This document shows positions 5,493 to 36,910 of a stretch of 36,910 bases of DNA, piece after piece (the first letter of the stretch is position 1; each line of letters opens with the position of its first letter). Position numbers and translations under genes: made by a program. The stretch covers positions 1-36,910 of the forward strand of contig JAFDCJ010000014.1 of assembly GCA_019312835.1 (NCBI GenBank), read 5' to 3'. Under the pieces are notes generated by a model. It was given only the letters and a program-made list of their open reading frames with translations. It did no database searches and was not told where the DNA came from. This DNA is from Deltaproteobacteria bacterium. Lineage in GTDB: Bacteria; Desulfobacterota; Desulfobacteria; Desulfobacterales; JAFDCJ01.

Positions 5493-5969
5493 AATTTCGT
5501 AACCTTGTATCTACGTAGTCTCGAGCAGCTTCTTGAGCGATTACGTTTTTTGTGCGGATTTTTTTATCATCAAATCAATCGGTTAATCAGAACTTCGAAA
5601 GTCGTTGCGGCGTGCTAATCCATCATCCATCACACGATCGTTTCCTAAAATAATCAATTCCATGGTTTCGGTGGCAAAAACGAAGATCCCATGACCATAT
5701 TTTCCAAGGAGGCATAAATGCTCTATCGGCATTACGTGCCGAAATCTTTAGATAAATTGGAAACAGCGCAGCCGAGGTCAGACCGGTGGAAGCGCCTGAT
5801 AATTTGAGCAATTCTATTCGTAATGTTTCAGGACGTGAGCCGGCTCGAACGCGTGCCATTCATCGTGGTCCATATTGTCGGCCTGATTCATATCAGCGGC
5901 GTTGAACCATCTCCAGCAATTGACGAATGCGCCGGTTTTTGGTAAGCTGAAAAGGTATTAGATACCAAT
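5493..5969. other. intergenic upstream of riboswitch
   Basis: No convincing gene. The minus-strand frame at 5623-5859 lacks a ribosome site and any recognisable domain. The palindrome CTACGTAG (5511-5518) lies just upstream of the kinase start. The right end holds the possible promoter for the riboswitch transcript. Confidence 0.45.
5920..5948 (+). promoter_or_regulatory. possible sigma-70 promoter for riboswitch transcript
   Basis: TTGACG (5920-5925), a 17-base spacer and TAAGCT (5943-5948). The -35 is good and the -10 is poor. Transcription would begin just before a small hairpin (GGTAT/ATACC, 5954-5966) and the riboswitch. Confidence 0.3.
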
Positions 5970-6055
5970 AAATCCACGATAAAGCCAAAGCAGCTGTGAG
6001 GCTGTGACGGAAAGCCGCGGGCCTTGAATCAAGGTGGCTGGGTTGCCAGGGGATG
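5970..6055 (+). promoter_or_regulatory. GEMM-I cyclic-dinucleotide riboswitch aptamer
   Basis: The sequence has the GEMM-I (c-di-GMP-I) core in order. First comes a GCCAAAG segment, then a hairpin CAGCT/GGCTG closed by a GTGA (GNRA) tetraloop, then the GACGGAAAGCC block at 6006-6016, a second hairpin CCTT-GAATC-AAGG, and the terminal GGCTGGGTTGCC (6036-6047). The closing helix may pair ATCC (5972-5975) with GGAT (6051-6054). GACGGAAAGCC and GGGTTGCC closely resemble the Geobacter members of this class. The class includes c-di-GMP binders and a 3',3'-cGAMP-binding variant. I could not align the selectivity base (position 20 of the Vc2 RNA) reliably, so the ligand is left open, with c-di-GMP the default. 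Confidence 0.82.
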
Positions 6056-6061
6056 AATGCC

Positions 6062-6100
6062 AAGCCGGGTAACCCATATGGTGACCCGGCTTCTTGTTTG
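6062..6100 (+). terminator. riboswitch-controlled intrinsic terminator
   Basis: AAGCCGGGT (6062-6070) pairs perfectly with ACCCGGCTT (6084-6092), with an inner ACC/GGT extension, followed by the T-rich tail TTCTTGTTTG. Its left arm can instead pair with the aptamer: GGTAACCCA (6068-6076) against TGGGTTGCC (6039-6047), nine pairs with one G-U. The two pairings exclude each other, as expected for an expression platform. Ligand binding should hold the aptamer strand and let the terminator form, which predicts an OFF switch. Confidence 0.7.
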
Positions 6101-6143
6101 TGGGTGCAATCCTGACGTAACCGGAGAGTGGGGTTTAAAAGGA

Positions 6144-6377
6144 ATGTTGAAGTTTGAACTGCCTGTGTACGAGGCTAAAAATCCGCACGATGACAAGTGG
6201 ATCGAGATCTCCGAGATCCATCTCATGGACCAACTGTACCGGACGTATCACAAGGTTACACCGGCCATTAAAGAAATGATCAAGGGCAACGAGGTTGAAA
6301 CGCCACATGGAACCTATCGGTTAAAATTGAAAGGCGGTGTAAAAGACATAGAACGGTCCGAGTTGACCGCCGCCTGA
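6144..6377 (+). CDS. 77-aa protein controlled by the GEMM riboswitch, function unknown
   Basis: I choose ATG 6144 because it lies after the terminator; the upstream in-frame ATG at 6057 would put coding sequence inside the terminator hairpin. Translation signals are modest (GGAGAGTGGGG at 6123, AAAAGGA directly before the ATG). The product is small, soluble and charged, with mixed sheet and helix character: an N-terminal strand-rich part (LKFELPVYEAK, WIEISEIHLMD), a helix (LYRTYHKVTPAIKEMIKG) and a C-terminal strand (GTYRLKLKGGVK). I recognise no family, signal peptide or membrane helix. Its position makes it the direct output of cyclic-dinucleotide sensing. The frame is compact and plausible, but only the riboswitch placement and the composition support it. 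Confidence 0.6.
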   Translation: MLKFELPVYEAKNPHDDKWIEISEIHLMDQLYRTYHKVTPAIKEMIKGNEVETPHGTYRLKLKGGVKDIERSELTAA

Positions 6378-6521
6378 GGTTGCTGGGTATCACCAAAATC
6401 AAACGCCTCCGCCTGATAAAGTTGTATTCCGCCGACAACTATTGGCGCCACTTGATAATCCATCTATTTTTCCGATTCATAATTCAAGGACGAACCATAA
6501 AAATTCAAAGGGAGAATTAGA

Positions 6522-6986
6522 ATGATGCAACCCACTTTAACGAAAGGCATGATCTCATTTATAGCAGTCGGCTTTTTCTTTACTTTGATCTTTTTCGCTA
6601 GTGGTTGTGCCGGCAACAGAATCCAGGTTGGATATGATAATGACGACAGCTATGAGTCTTCGCAGGAAAATTCTGAGCATAAGCCCCAAAAAGGCGGACC
6701 CCCAGCCCATGCACCTGCCCATGGTTATCGCGCCAAACATCACTACCATTATTATCCGTCCGCTTCTGTTTATTACGATAATGAGCGCGAACTTTATTTC
6801 TATCTGGAGGGTGACAACTGGGAAGTCAGCGTATCACTGCCCGGCAGTATTCGAGTGAGATTAGGGGATTACGTCAGCATTGAGATGGAAACCGACCGGC
6901 CTTACCTTTATCATGCCGAGCATGTAAAGAAATACCCACCCGGGCAAATGAAGAAAAAGAATAAAAAGAAATATAATCAAGGCTGA
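6522..6986 (+). CDS. His/Tyr-rich lipoprotein
   Basis: A 154-residue exported lipoprotein. It starts at the ATG pair at 6522 behind AAAGGGAGAA. Residues 10-28 form a hydrophobic signal ending in a lipobox (FFASG-Cys29), so it should be lipid-anchored. The mature part starts with an acidic, flexible stretch, then a Pro/His/Tyr-rich segment (about 55-85, including HAPAHGYRAKHHYHYY). Next comes a compact domain at about 88-135 with YFYLEGDNWEVSVSLPG and a DYVSIEMETDRPYLYH segment. It ends in a very basic tail (KKKNKKK). The compact domain resembles small lipoproteins common in delta-proteobacterial genomes, but I know no function. A strong terminator follows at once, so the gene ends its own transcript. 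Confidence 0.75.
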   Translation: MMQPTLTKGMISFIAVGFFFTLIFFASGCAGNRIQVGYDNDDSYESSQENSEHKPQKGGPPAHAPAHGYRAKHHYHYYPSASVYYDNERELYFYLEGDNWEVSVSLPGSIRVRLGDYVSIEMETDRPYLYHAEHVKKYPPGQMKKKNKKKYNQG

Positions 6987-7200: not shown

Positions 7201-7755
7201 ATGCAAATCGCCTGTCAATCATGTCGTTTTAATTTCAAATTAGACAGCAACGCTGTAAAAACCACCGGGACCCTGGTCAGGTGTTCCAAATGTCACACCG
7301 TTTTCAGAGTTTACCCGCCGGAACTGGCTAGATACCGCCGACACACAAGGGTTAAAACCCAGAATCTGATTTCCTATTTTGCATTTAATAAACACCGCCG
7401 CTTAATCTCCCATGGATTGGGAATAGCCGTGGATATCAGCAAGGGGGGCATATTGCTGGAGACGCCCTATACGATCGAGTCGAGTTATCTCGTGCTGACG
7501 GCGATTGATAACCTGAAAAATATCATAGAAGTGCAGGGCAGACTGATATATTCAAAAAAATCCCCCCGGGGCACGTTTCTTTGCGGCATAGAATTTATCG
7601 GCAACGATGAGCGCGTGAAAGATTTTATCACCAAATTGGTTCTGGAATACAGTGTGCAGAAAAATAACCTTTTCATTAGGCTAAAAAAACAGCTTTGCGG
7701 TAAGAATTCACCGTCAAATCCCGGCAGGCCGATGCCGTCCGTGCACCAGCCTTAG
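7201..7755 (+). CDS. MJ0042 zinc-ribbon plus PilZ (c-di-GMP-binding) protein
   Basis: A 184-residue soluble protein with two parts. Residues 1-36 are an MJ0042-type zinc ribbon with CxxC pairs at Cys5/Cys8 and Cys28/Cys31. Residues about 44-150 form a PilZ domain. Its c-di-GMP signature is complete: RxxxR (Arg46-Arg50) and, 28 residues later, the D-x-S-x-x-G motif (VDISKGG, Asp78, Ser80, Gly83). The family binds c-di-GMP and then acts on motility, exopolysaccharide or gene expression; the zinc ribbon may contact nucleic acid or protein. It lies 1.1 kb downstream of the cyclic-dinucleotide riboswitch but beyond a strong terminator, so it is not on the same transcript. Its stop shares bases with the stop of the convergent gene (TTAG at 7752-7755). 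The ribosome site is weak (AGGGGC). Confidence 0.88.
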   Translation: MQIACQSCRFNFKLDSNAVKTTGTLVRCSKCHTVFRVYPPELARYRRHTRVKTQNLISYFAFNKHRRLISHGLGIAVDISKGGILLETPYTIESSYLVLTAIDNLKNIIEVQGRLIYSKKSPRGTFLCGIEFIGNDERVKDFITKLVLEYSVQKNNLFIRLKKQLCGKNSPSNPGRPMPSVHQP

Positions 7756-35242: not shown

Positions 35243-35704
35243 TCAGCCAGTTGAAACTTTTATGCGCCTCGTTTCAGATTCTTTTGCTTTTCGTAATTTG
35301 ATTTTCAGGATACCGCGCTGATAGCTTGCGTTCACTTTATCAGGGTCCACTGCCGCAGGCAGCTCAATCGTCCTGTTGAAGTAGCCATAGGACCTTTCGA
35401 CACGATAATAGATCTCTTCTGTCTCCTCTCGCGACTGTTTTTTTTCACCTTTAATCGTTAACAGGCGTCCATCTATGGAGATATCTAAATCTTTGGCTTC
35501 AATTCCAGGGATTTCAGCCTTGACCGTGATATCCTTCCGCCCTTCGCTAATGTCGACAGTTAGATCCCATTTTCCGTTGCCAAAAAGGTACGGTGACGGC
35601 AGAAACTGCGGCTCAAAAAAACGGTCATACAGGTTTTCAATTTTTCGACGCAATCCATTGTCAGGGGTTTCCGTTTTTCTTTTCCACGGCAATATGTCAA
35701 ACAT
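35243..35704 (-). CDS. small heat shock protein (Hsp20/alpha-crystallin)
   Basis: A 153-residue ATP-independent holdase. The alpha-crystallin domain covers about 45-150, with the strand VKAEIPGIEAKDLDISIDGRLLTIKGEK, the segment YGYFNRTIELPAAVDPDKVNASYQRGILKIKL and a C-terminal I-x-V tail (RIKVSTG). The N-terminus (IENLYDRFFEPQF) is the variable arm. It starts at ATG 35704 with GGGGAGG upstream. Its start codon overlaps the stop of a short upstream frame at 35697-35858. It is the middle member of three hsp20 genes in this window. Confidence 0.93.
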   Translation of the reverse strand: MFDILPWKRKTETPDNGLRRKIENLYDRFFEPQFLPSPYLFGNGKWDLTVDISEGRKDITVKAEIPGIEAKDLDISIDGRLLTIKGEKKQSREETEEIYYRVERSYGYFNRTIELPAAVDPDKVNASYQRGILKIKLRKAKESETRRIKVSTG

Positions 35705-35858
35705 TTATACCACCTCCCCGGTAGACAAAAGTGCTTTTTGTTGAGAAAAAACTAGACAGTATTGAGATTATTTGTTTACTGATACGCCTGAACTGGTTTA
35801 AGCGGGAAAAACCGAGCGTTGTATGGAAATGGAGGCGATAGAGGGTCGGTCTATACAT
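35697..35858 (-). CDS. candidate small leader ORF overlapping hsp20 start
   Basis: A 53-codon frame from ATG 35858 with a near-perfect Shine-Dalgarno (AGGAGGTGA) seven bases upstream, better than for any hsp20 here. The product is basic and has no known family: MYRPTLYRLHFHT, then a hydrophobic part (ISKQIISILSSFF) and VYRGGGINV at the end. Its last eight bases overlap the hsp20 start (TAAATGTTTGAC), as in translational coupling. It could be a real small protein, a leader that controls hsp20 translation, or a chance frame; only the ribosome site and the overlap support it. Confidence 0.45.
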   Translation of the reverse strand: MYRPTLYRLHFHTTLGFSRLNQFRRISKQIISILSSFFSTKSTFVYRGGGINV

Positions 35859-35968
35859 GATATCACCTCCTATTTCATTAGCCTGGCTTAGCACCAATTA
35901 AACAAAAGGCGAATATATCTATTATCGATTGTATGAATCCGAAATTACTTTGCTTCCAACGATTAGCT

Positions 35969-36013
35969 GGAGCCGGGATCTCGCATCGCGTGTTTGCGCA
36001 GACACCCGGCTCC
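35969..36013 (-). other. hairpin between hsp20 genes
   Basis: GGAGCCGGG (35969-35977) pairs with CCCGGCTCC (36005-36013), nine perfect pairs with a 27-base loop, ten bases after the stop of the hsp20 gene at 36023. There is no T run, so it may protect the message or attenuate it rather than end it. Confidence 0.45.
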
Positions 36014-36022
36014 GTATGGCTT

Positions 36023-36433
36023 TTAGCCTGTTTTAACAGCAATCTTTTTCGGAGTTGCCTTTTCAACCTTCGGGAGCGTTAATCGAAGTACGCCATCATT
36101 GAGCTTTGCATCAATGTTTTGCTGGTTGATGAGTTCTCCAAGGGTAAACTGTCGGTAGTAGCGGCCGGTTTCATACTCGACCAGAATTTCTTCCTCGTCG
36201 GTATTGTCAACCGGGGCGATATCTGCCAACAGGGTCAAGGTGTTGTCACGAAGATCAATCGTCAGATCATCTGCTTTTACGCCGGGCATATCGGCGAGCA
36301 AGGTTATCTCTTTTTCCGTCTCAAATATATCAACCGCAGGGGTGAAAACCAATCCCGGCGTGGTTTGTTCGGCAGGACTGGCCACCTCTTGCTTTCCTCG
36401 AACTTTAAGCTCTTTGCTCTGTGTATCAGCCAT
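36023..36433 (-). CDS. small heat shock protein (Hsp20/alpha-crystallin)
   Basis: A 136-residue Hsp20 homologue with the alpha-crystallin domain at about 35-125. Landmarks are EITLLADMPGVKADDLTIDLRDNTLTLLAD, a YETGRYYRQFTLGELINQQNIDAKLNDGVLRLTLPK segment and an ending IAVKTG. It starts at ATG 36433 with AAGGAGG upstream. It is distinct from its neighbours (a longer acidic loop near residue 75 with DNTDEEEILVEYE), so the cluster is a family of diverged paralogues that may build mixed oligomers. Confidence 0.93.
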   Translation of the reverse strand: MADTQSKELKVRGKQEVASPAEQTTPGLVFTPAVDIFETEKEITLLADMPGVKADDLTIDLRDNTLTLLADIAPVDNTDEEEILVEYETGRYYRQFTLGELINQQNIDAKLNDGVLRLTLPKVEKATPKKIAVKTG

Positions 36434-36443
36434 TGCTTGAGCC

Positions 36444-36458
36444 CTCCTTTGTGAAAGA
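36444..36458 (-). promoter_or_regulatory. possible weak hairpin masking an hsp20 ribosome site
   Basis: On the minus-strand RNA, UUCUUU (36458-36453) can pair with AAAGGA (36449-36444) over a CAC loop, six pairs with one G-U, covering part of the AAGGAGG ribosome site. A short hairpin like this is the pattern of RNA thermometers, but the stem is weak and short. Confidence 0.3.
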
Positions 36459-36467
36459 ATATGTTGG

Positions 36468-36910
36468 CTAACTTACGCTAATTTGTTTGGGTTTTGCGAC
36501 CTCTGCTTTTGAAACCACTATGCTTAAAATACCGTTCTCCAGCTTGGCATCCACTTTATCAGAATCGATATCGCCAGGAAGTCCGATCATCCTGGAAAAT
36601 GTGCCAGCTTCGCGTTCTCTTCTGTGATAACGGGCGCTTTCTTCTTCCGCAGCGATCTTTCTTTCACCGGAAATAGCAAGGTTCTTGCCGGTAACCTGAA
36701 TGTCAAGCTCTTCACCATTCACTCCAGGCAATTCGGCGCGAACATAATAATTGTCTCTGTCTTCACTTAGATTAATCAGCGGAAATACGCCCGCGCTTAC
36801 TCTTTGACTCGGAGTATCATCAAACATCTGATCAAGCTGCTGTCTCATCCGATGTAACTCTTCCAACGGGCTTCGGAATCTCCATGTGGGAACGTTGAAA
36901 AATCTGCGAT
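36468..36910 (-). CDS. small heat shock protein (Hsp20), 5' end beyond the window
   Basis: A third Hsp20 homologue. The first start-like codon in frame within the window is a TTG at 36866, but the frame stays open to the window edge with family-like sequence (FFNVPTWRFRSPL), so the true start lies outside. The alpha-crystallin domain has YVRAELPGVNGEELDIQVTGKNLAISGERK, EREAGTFSRMIGLPGDIDSDKVDAKLENGILSIVV and a KQISVS end. The N-terminal piece (LEELHRMRQQLDQMFDD) is typical of bacterial Hsp20. It is probably the first gene of a minus-strand operon continuing with the hsp20 at 36023. Confidence 0.9.
   Translation of the reverse strand, partial: RRFFNVPTWRFRSPLEELHRMRQQLDQMFDDTPSQRVSAGVFPLINLSEDRDNYYVRAELPGVNGEELDIQVTGKNLAISGERKIAAEEESARYHRREREAGTFSRMIGLPGDIDSDKVDAKLENGILSIVVSKAEVAKPKQISVS

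Follow-up and report, generated by a model that had tools for sequence, protein, structure and literature searches.

A stand-alone gene for a 77-residue protein is very probably controlled by a c-di-GMP-I (GEMM-I) riboswitch acting as a transcriptional OFF switch. Both lie on the forward strand of the window, that is, the whole stretch of 36,910 nucleotides analysed (contig JAFDCJ010000014.1 of assembly GCA_019312835.1, Deltaproteobacteria bacterium, order Desulfobacterales). GEMM-I OFF switches are well known, and the sensor is an ordinary riboswitch of a known kind, which changes nothing in riboswitch knowledge. The target protein is lineage-specific. It belongs to an undescribed small-protein family tied to c-di-GMP in uncultured Desulfobacterales, including a marine-worm symbiont, and the switch predicts when the protein is made.

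The Rfam covariance model RF01051 (c-di-GMP-I) matches positions 5974-6050 (+) over its full length, model positions 1-87, scoring 57.2 bits where the cut-off is 35, with an E-value of 8.7e-9. This is the only Rfam match in the window. At the edge of the match, 5972-5975 and 6051-6054 form the closing helix P1 (AUCC/GGAU), and the aptamer with P1 spans 5972-6054 (+). P2 is a hairpin at 5990-6005 (+), identified by the Rfam alignment and by two-sided pair changes in relatives, with a GUGA (GNRA) loop at 5996-5999. With Vc2 numbering set on the Rfam consensus, alignment places G20 at 5984, the pair C21-G46 at 5985/6010, A47 at 6011 and C92 at 6046; the binding-pocket nucleotides of RF01051 (G at 5984, A at 6011, C at 6046) are thus all present. 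A sequence-only reading of this DNA had named a GEMM-I aptamer with a GNRA loop and had proposed a covariance-model search and an inspection of position 20; the search returned the GEMM-I family above its cut-off, the loop stands where the Rfam alignment puts it, and position 20 is G rather than the A20 of GEMM-Ib (cGAMP) aptamers. Compared with the family at large, the window copy shares the full-length match, the three pocket nucleotides, the P2/P3 core and the GNRA loop, but differs in having C21-G46 for the consensus G21-C46, GUGA for GAAA, and a P3 that appears from its sequence to be compact and to lack the 11-nt tetraloop receptor (CUAAG/UAUGG).

These differences recur within the genus, where eight genomes contain 31 GEMM-I matches and an alignment of the aptamers shows two subtypes. 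In the canonical subtype the 21-46 pair is G-C, the loop is mostly GAAA, and the receptor is of the CUAA type. The flipped subtype has C21-G46, other GNRA loops, and a P3 either compact or extended without the receptor; its members include the window copy, four related leaders described below, and leaders of minor-pilin-like genes (L002, L005, L061 and L063). A second model, RF03167 (c-di-GMP-I-GGC), gives the four related leaders 64-68 bits at a cut-off of 59. Although they exceed that cut-off, they carry A47, in the context GACGGAAA or GTCGGAAA, where the printed consensus of RF03167 has G47 (GACGCGAA). The window copy also has A47 and is best fitted by RF01051.

The aptamer is flanked by the remaining parts of a transcriptional switch. 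A predicted promoter, TTGACG-N17-TAAGCT with a TG extension before the -10 element, lies at 5920-5948 (+), from which transcription would start near 5955. The terminator hairpin at 6062-6092 (+) joins a left arm AAGCCGGGTAACC (6062-6074) to a right arm GGTGACCCGGCTT (6080-6092) through 12 pairs and one A.G mismatch, with -19.7 kcal/mol when folded alone. Its U-rich tail CTTGTTTG (6093-6100, +) is an interrupted tract, weaker than the tracts of the relatives (TTTTTTG or similar). A scan for consensus promoters and terminators detected neither element of the window leader, because the -10 element is poor and the stem contains a mismatch. The switching strand TGGGTTGCC (6039-6047, +) can serve either as the 3' part of the aptamer or as an antiterminator strand, pairing with 6068-6076 through nine pairs including one G-U (-16.2 kcal/mol). 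Shuffling the left arm reproduced nine-pair complementarity by chance in 29 of 20,000 trials.

Promoter, aptamer, antiterminator, terminator and small gene occur together in the window and at four other loci (L009, L010, L011 and L015), which come from three other genomes of the genus, L009 and L015 being two copies in one genome. In every one of the five leaders, TTGACG-N17-TAANNT lies 31-38 bases 5' of the aptamer core. Across the five, none of the 110 aptamer cells departs from standard pairing, and four pairs are changed on both sides; the core antiterminator has standard pairs in 34 of its 35 cells, and 60 of 65 terminator cells are paired when the right arm is aligned by hand. Having five copies of one switch gives a clean test set.

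Each of the five loci has different neighbouring genes, and the small gene is therefore the constant target. This constancy also bears on whether the window switch governs a longer operon, running on into a lipoprotein-like gene (6522-6986, +) and a gene with a zinc-ribbon (MJ0042 type) and a PilZ domain (7201-7755, +, less than 1 kb after the small gene), and so forming a c-di-GMP feedback loop. The three genes share a strand, the consensus scan found no plus-strand terminator in 6377-6540, and the PilZ domain of the third gene makes its product a possible c-di-GMP receptor. However, the genes are separated by gaps of 144 and 214 bases, and the four related loci have other genes downstream, or genes on the opposite strand. 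We regard the operon as unlikely and treat the small gene as the regulated unit.

The sequence-only reading had not decided between c-di-GMP and cGAMP. Our best guess for the ligand of the window aptamer is c-di-GMP, not cGAMP, a prediction strongly suggested by G20, A47 and C92 in the window copy and by the lack of A20 among the cleanly aligned GEMM-I matches of the genus. G20 occurs in every genus match with a clean alignment, a count that leaves out L046 (no clean aptamer at the coordinates used), L060 (matched only from model position 7, judged by eye, apparently of the flipped type) and one of the 31 matches. The cGAMP riboswitches (GEMM-Ib) of Geobacter, for example that of pilM, have an overall aptamer fold like that of the window copy, but carry A20 in place of its G20. 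The source genome has 15 GGDEF matches. Eight domains could be read from end to end with the Asp of diguanylate cyclases kept, while L103 and L105 deviate and the others were unreadable with the patterns used; given eight canonical domains, c-di-GMP is expected in the cell. Synthases of cGAMP have Ser where c-di-GMP synthases have Asp (PMC6456294). At this position L105 has Asn, and its motif reads GGDDF.

An aptamer that senses 3',3'-cGAMP in the manner of GEMM-Ib, or that senses both dinucleotides, is improbable on this evidence. In its favour, the C21-G46 flip of the window copy, against the usual G21-C46, sits in lower P2, where changes are able to shift ligand selectivity (PMC9262584). 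The same paper describes G20 as contributing to selectivity without strictly deciding it. One GGDEF domain of the genome, L103, also has Ser at the Hypr position. That domain is degenerate, however, having lost the conserved Asn and reading AGDEF, and the G20 of the cleanly aligned genus matches likewise speaks for c-di-GMP.

The direction of switching can be predicted from the layout with similar strength. The main terminator sits entirely 3' of the aptamer, does not overlap it, and uses no aptamer sequence, so that the two are compatible, and its left arm is common to the antiterminator. Because the terminator needs nothing from the aptamer and ligand binding can free its left arm, ligand should favour termination. 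With c-di-GMP bound, 6039-6047 would be held in the aptamer, the 6062-6092 hairpin would form, and RNA polymerase would stop before the gene. At low c-di-GMP, 6039-6047 would instead engage the left arm of the hairpin for long enough that polymerase gets past, allowing synthesis of the 77-residue protein. The sequence-only reading had arrived at this terminator/antiterminator design and at the same OFF logic; its competing strands proved exact to the coordinate, and the design, with the OFF logic predicted from it, is kept in the four other leaders. Cd1 of Clostridioides difficile, a GEMM-I OFF switch that works kinetically (PMC9262584), has the same arrangement: a terminator apart from the aptamer, an antiterminator made of the aptamer 3' strand and a terminator strand, and a ligand that favours the terminator, as predicted for the window; Cd1 controls flagellar genes, whereas the window leader precedes a single small gene.

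Folding along the transcript shows where competition could occur. With only the left arm emerged, the window, L009 and L015 each reach an antiterminator probability of about 1. The value is about 0.3 for L010 and 0 for L011, in which a competing fold wins. In equilibrium folding, every full-length leader is dominated by terminator-like hairpins, L010 and the window giving mixtures. We infer that the switch must be kinetic, because a terminator mostly wins at equilibrium even without ligand. The minimum-energy fold of the whole leader misfolded the aptamer and was discarded for judging the switch.

Part of the window ensemble is a second terminator-like hairpin, in which the aptamer strand pairs with the right arm of the terminator. 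Ligand would block this hairpin, as expected of an ON switch in which ligand prevents termination, and leaders of ON design, with the aptamer strand as a terminator arm, do occur in the genus before minor-pilin-like genes (L005, L060 and L063). The pilM riboswitch is an ON switch, with an aptamer strand used in its terminator (PMC9262584). An ON direction is nevertheless very improbable for the window leader, since the 6062-6092 hairpin is independent of aptamer sequence and would form with ligand bound, and all four related leaders were scored as having separate terminators. The pilin genes themselves are not all of one sign, since L002, before a pilin-like gene of the source genome, has a separate terminator.

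The target of the predicted OFF switch runs from an ATG at 6144 to a stop at 6377 (+) and is a real protein gene. Its dN/dS is about 0.16 (0.16-0.17 against L009 and L011), a sign of purifying selection, and five residues (E10, W19, P40, G48 and R59) are invariant among 19 aligned homologues. That the frame is no gene and the RNA itself the product, as a poorly spaced ribosome-binding site and the absence of a known protein family might suggest, is hardly credible beside these homologues, this dN/dS, and the confident core of the structural model.

Searches of Pfam, NCBIfam, PHROGs and PDB returned no meaningful match to the protein, in keeping with the earlier statement that it has no recognised family. 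A hit to PF03127 GAT (E 0.0085) was dismissed as chance, and PDB profile matches, which were to designed coiled coils and spanned one helix, were dismissed as composition. AlphaFold models residues 11-60 with pLDDT of about 90 as beta-beta-alpha-alpha-beta-beta, followed by a loose tail. The PDB fold search gave nothing with E below 2, and so no solved fold alike; viral fold matches to uncharacterised phage proteins of 59-66 residues (E 0.01-0.14, TM at most 0.77 on the target) were weak and were set aside. Searches of phage, viral-contig and plasmid sequences produced no relatives.

The family is narrowly distributed, with relatives found only in Desulfobacterales. A short peptide pattern, sensitive to close relatives only, identified seven loci in 84,980 genomes. 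Every one belongs to Desulfobacterales or to a deltaproteobacterial MAG; Olavius symbiont Delta 1 and a Desulfosarcina MAG are among the carriers. A profile search found members in 11 of 389 sampled Desulfobacterales genomes from six genera, the match in G096 being marginal. Among the members checked outside the genus of the window genome, none had a GEMM element nearby. The family tree groups the proteins under riboswitch control in a single clade (support 81/83), with one change, and only this clade of the family has the riboswitch.

Genomic context offers some leads to function. In G271, which belongs to another genus than the window genome, both copies of the gene lie 17 bases 5' of a single-domain response regulator (regions L089:3092-3613 and L091:996-1618). 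The L090 member has a hydrophobic N-terminal extension in open frame. A PilZ gene lies nearby, with 1-3 kb between, in four of about 19 contexts (the window, L087, L088 and L093); these neighbours were noticed post hoc, and with 21-35 PilZ matches per genome the association may be chance, which makes it a lead only. Taken together, the response-regulator adjacency, the L090 extension and the PilZ neighbours suggest, tentatively and with considerable doubt, that the 77-residue protein serves as a small accessory in signalling and is produced while c-di-GMP is low. Rather less likely is the fuller proposal that it founds a new signalling-accessory family, is produced at low c-di-GMP only, and acts with response regulators or PilZ proteins. 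If this were true, the protein would alter behaviour on exit from the high c-di-GMP state.

Several other GEMM-I leaders of the genus were noted. Flipped-type aptamers of ON design precede minor-pilin-like genes (L005, L060, L061 and L063), and their P3 insertions reach about 70 bases. A gene for an M23-type peptidase-like protein, so called by sequence alone, is found in six genomes of the genus behind a conserved leader that carries both GEMM-I and a terminator of its own (L006, L043, L045, L049, L050 and L053). A gene with haem-binding motifs, resembling those of multihaem cytochromes (L004:1501-2787), has a GEMM-I aptamer directly 5'; a clear terminator was not found in this leader, and control is possibly translational. 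At L051, from position 1501, a flipped-type GEMM-I aptamer and a terminator are followed by a very short frame for a membrane peptide. Elsewhere in the window, 35243-36866 (-) holds three genes in a row that resemble Hsp20, an assignment made from their sequences.
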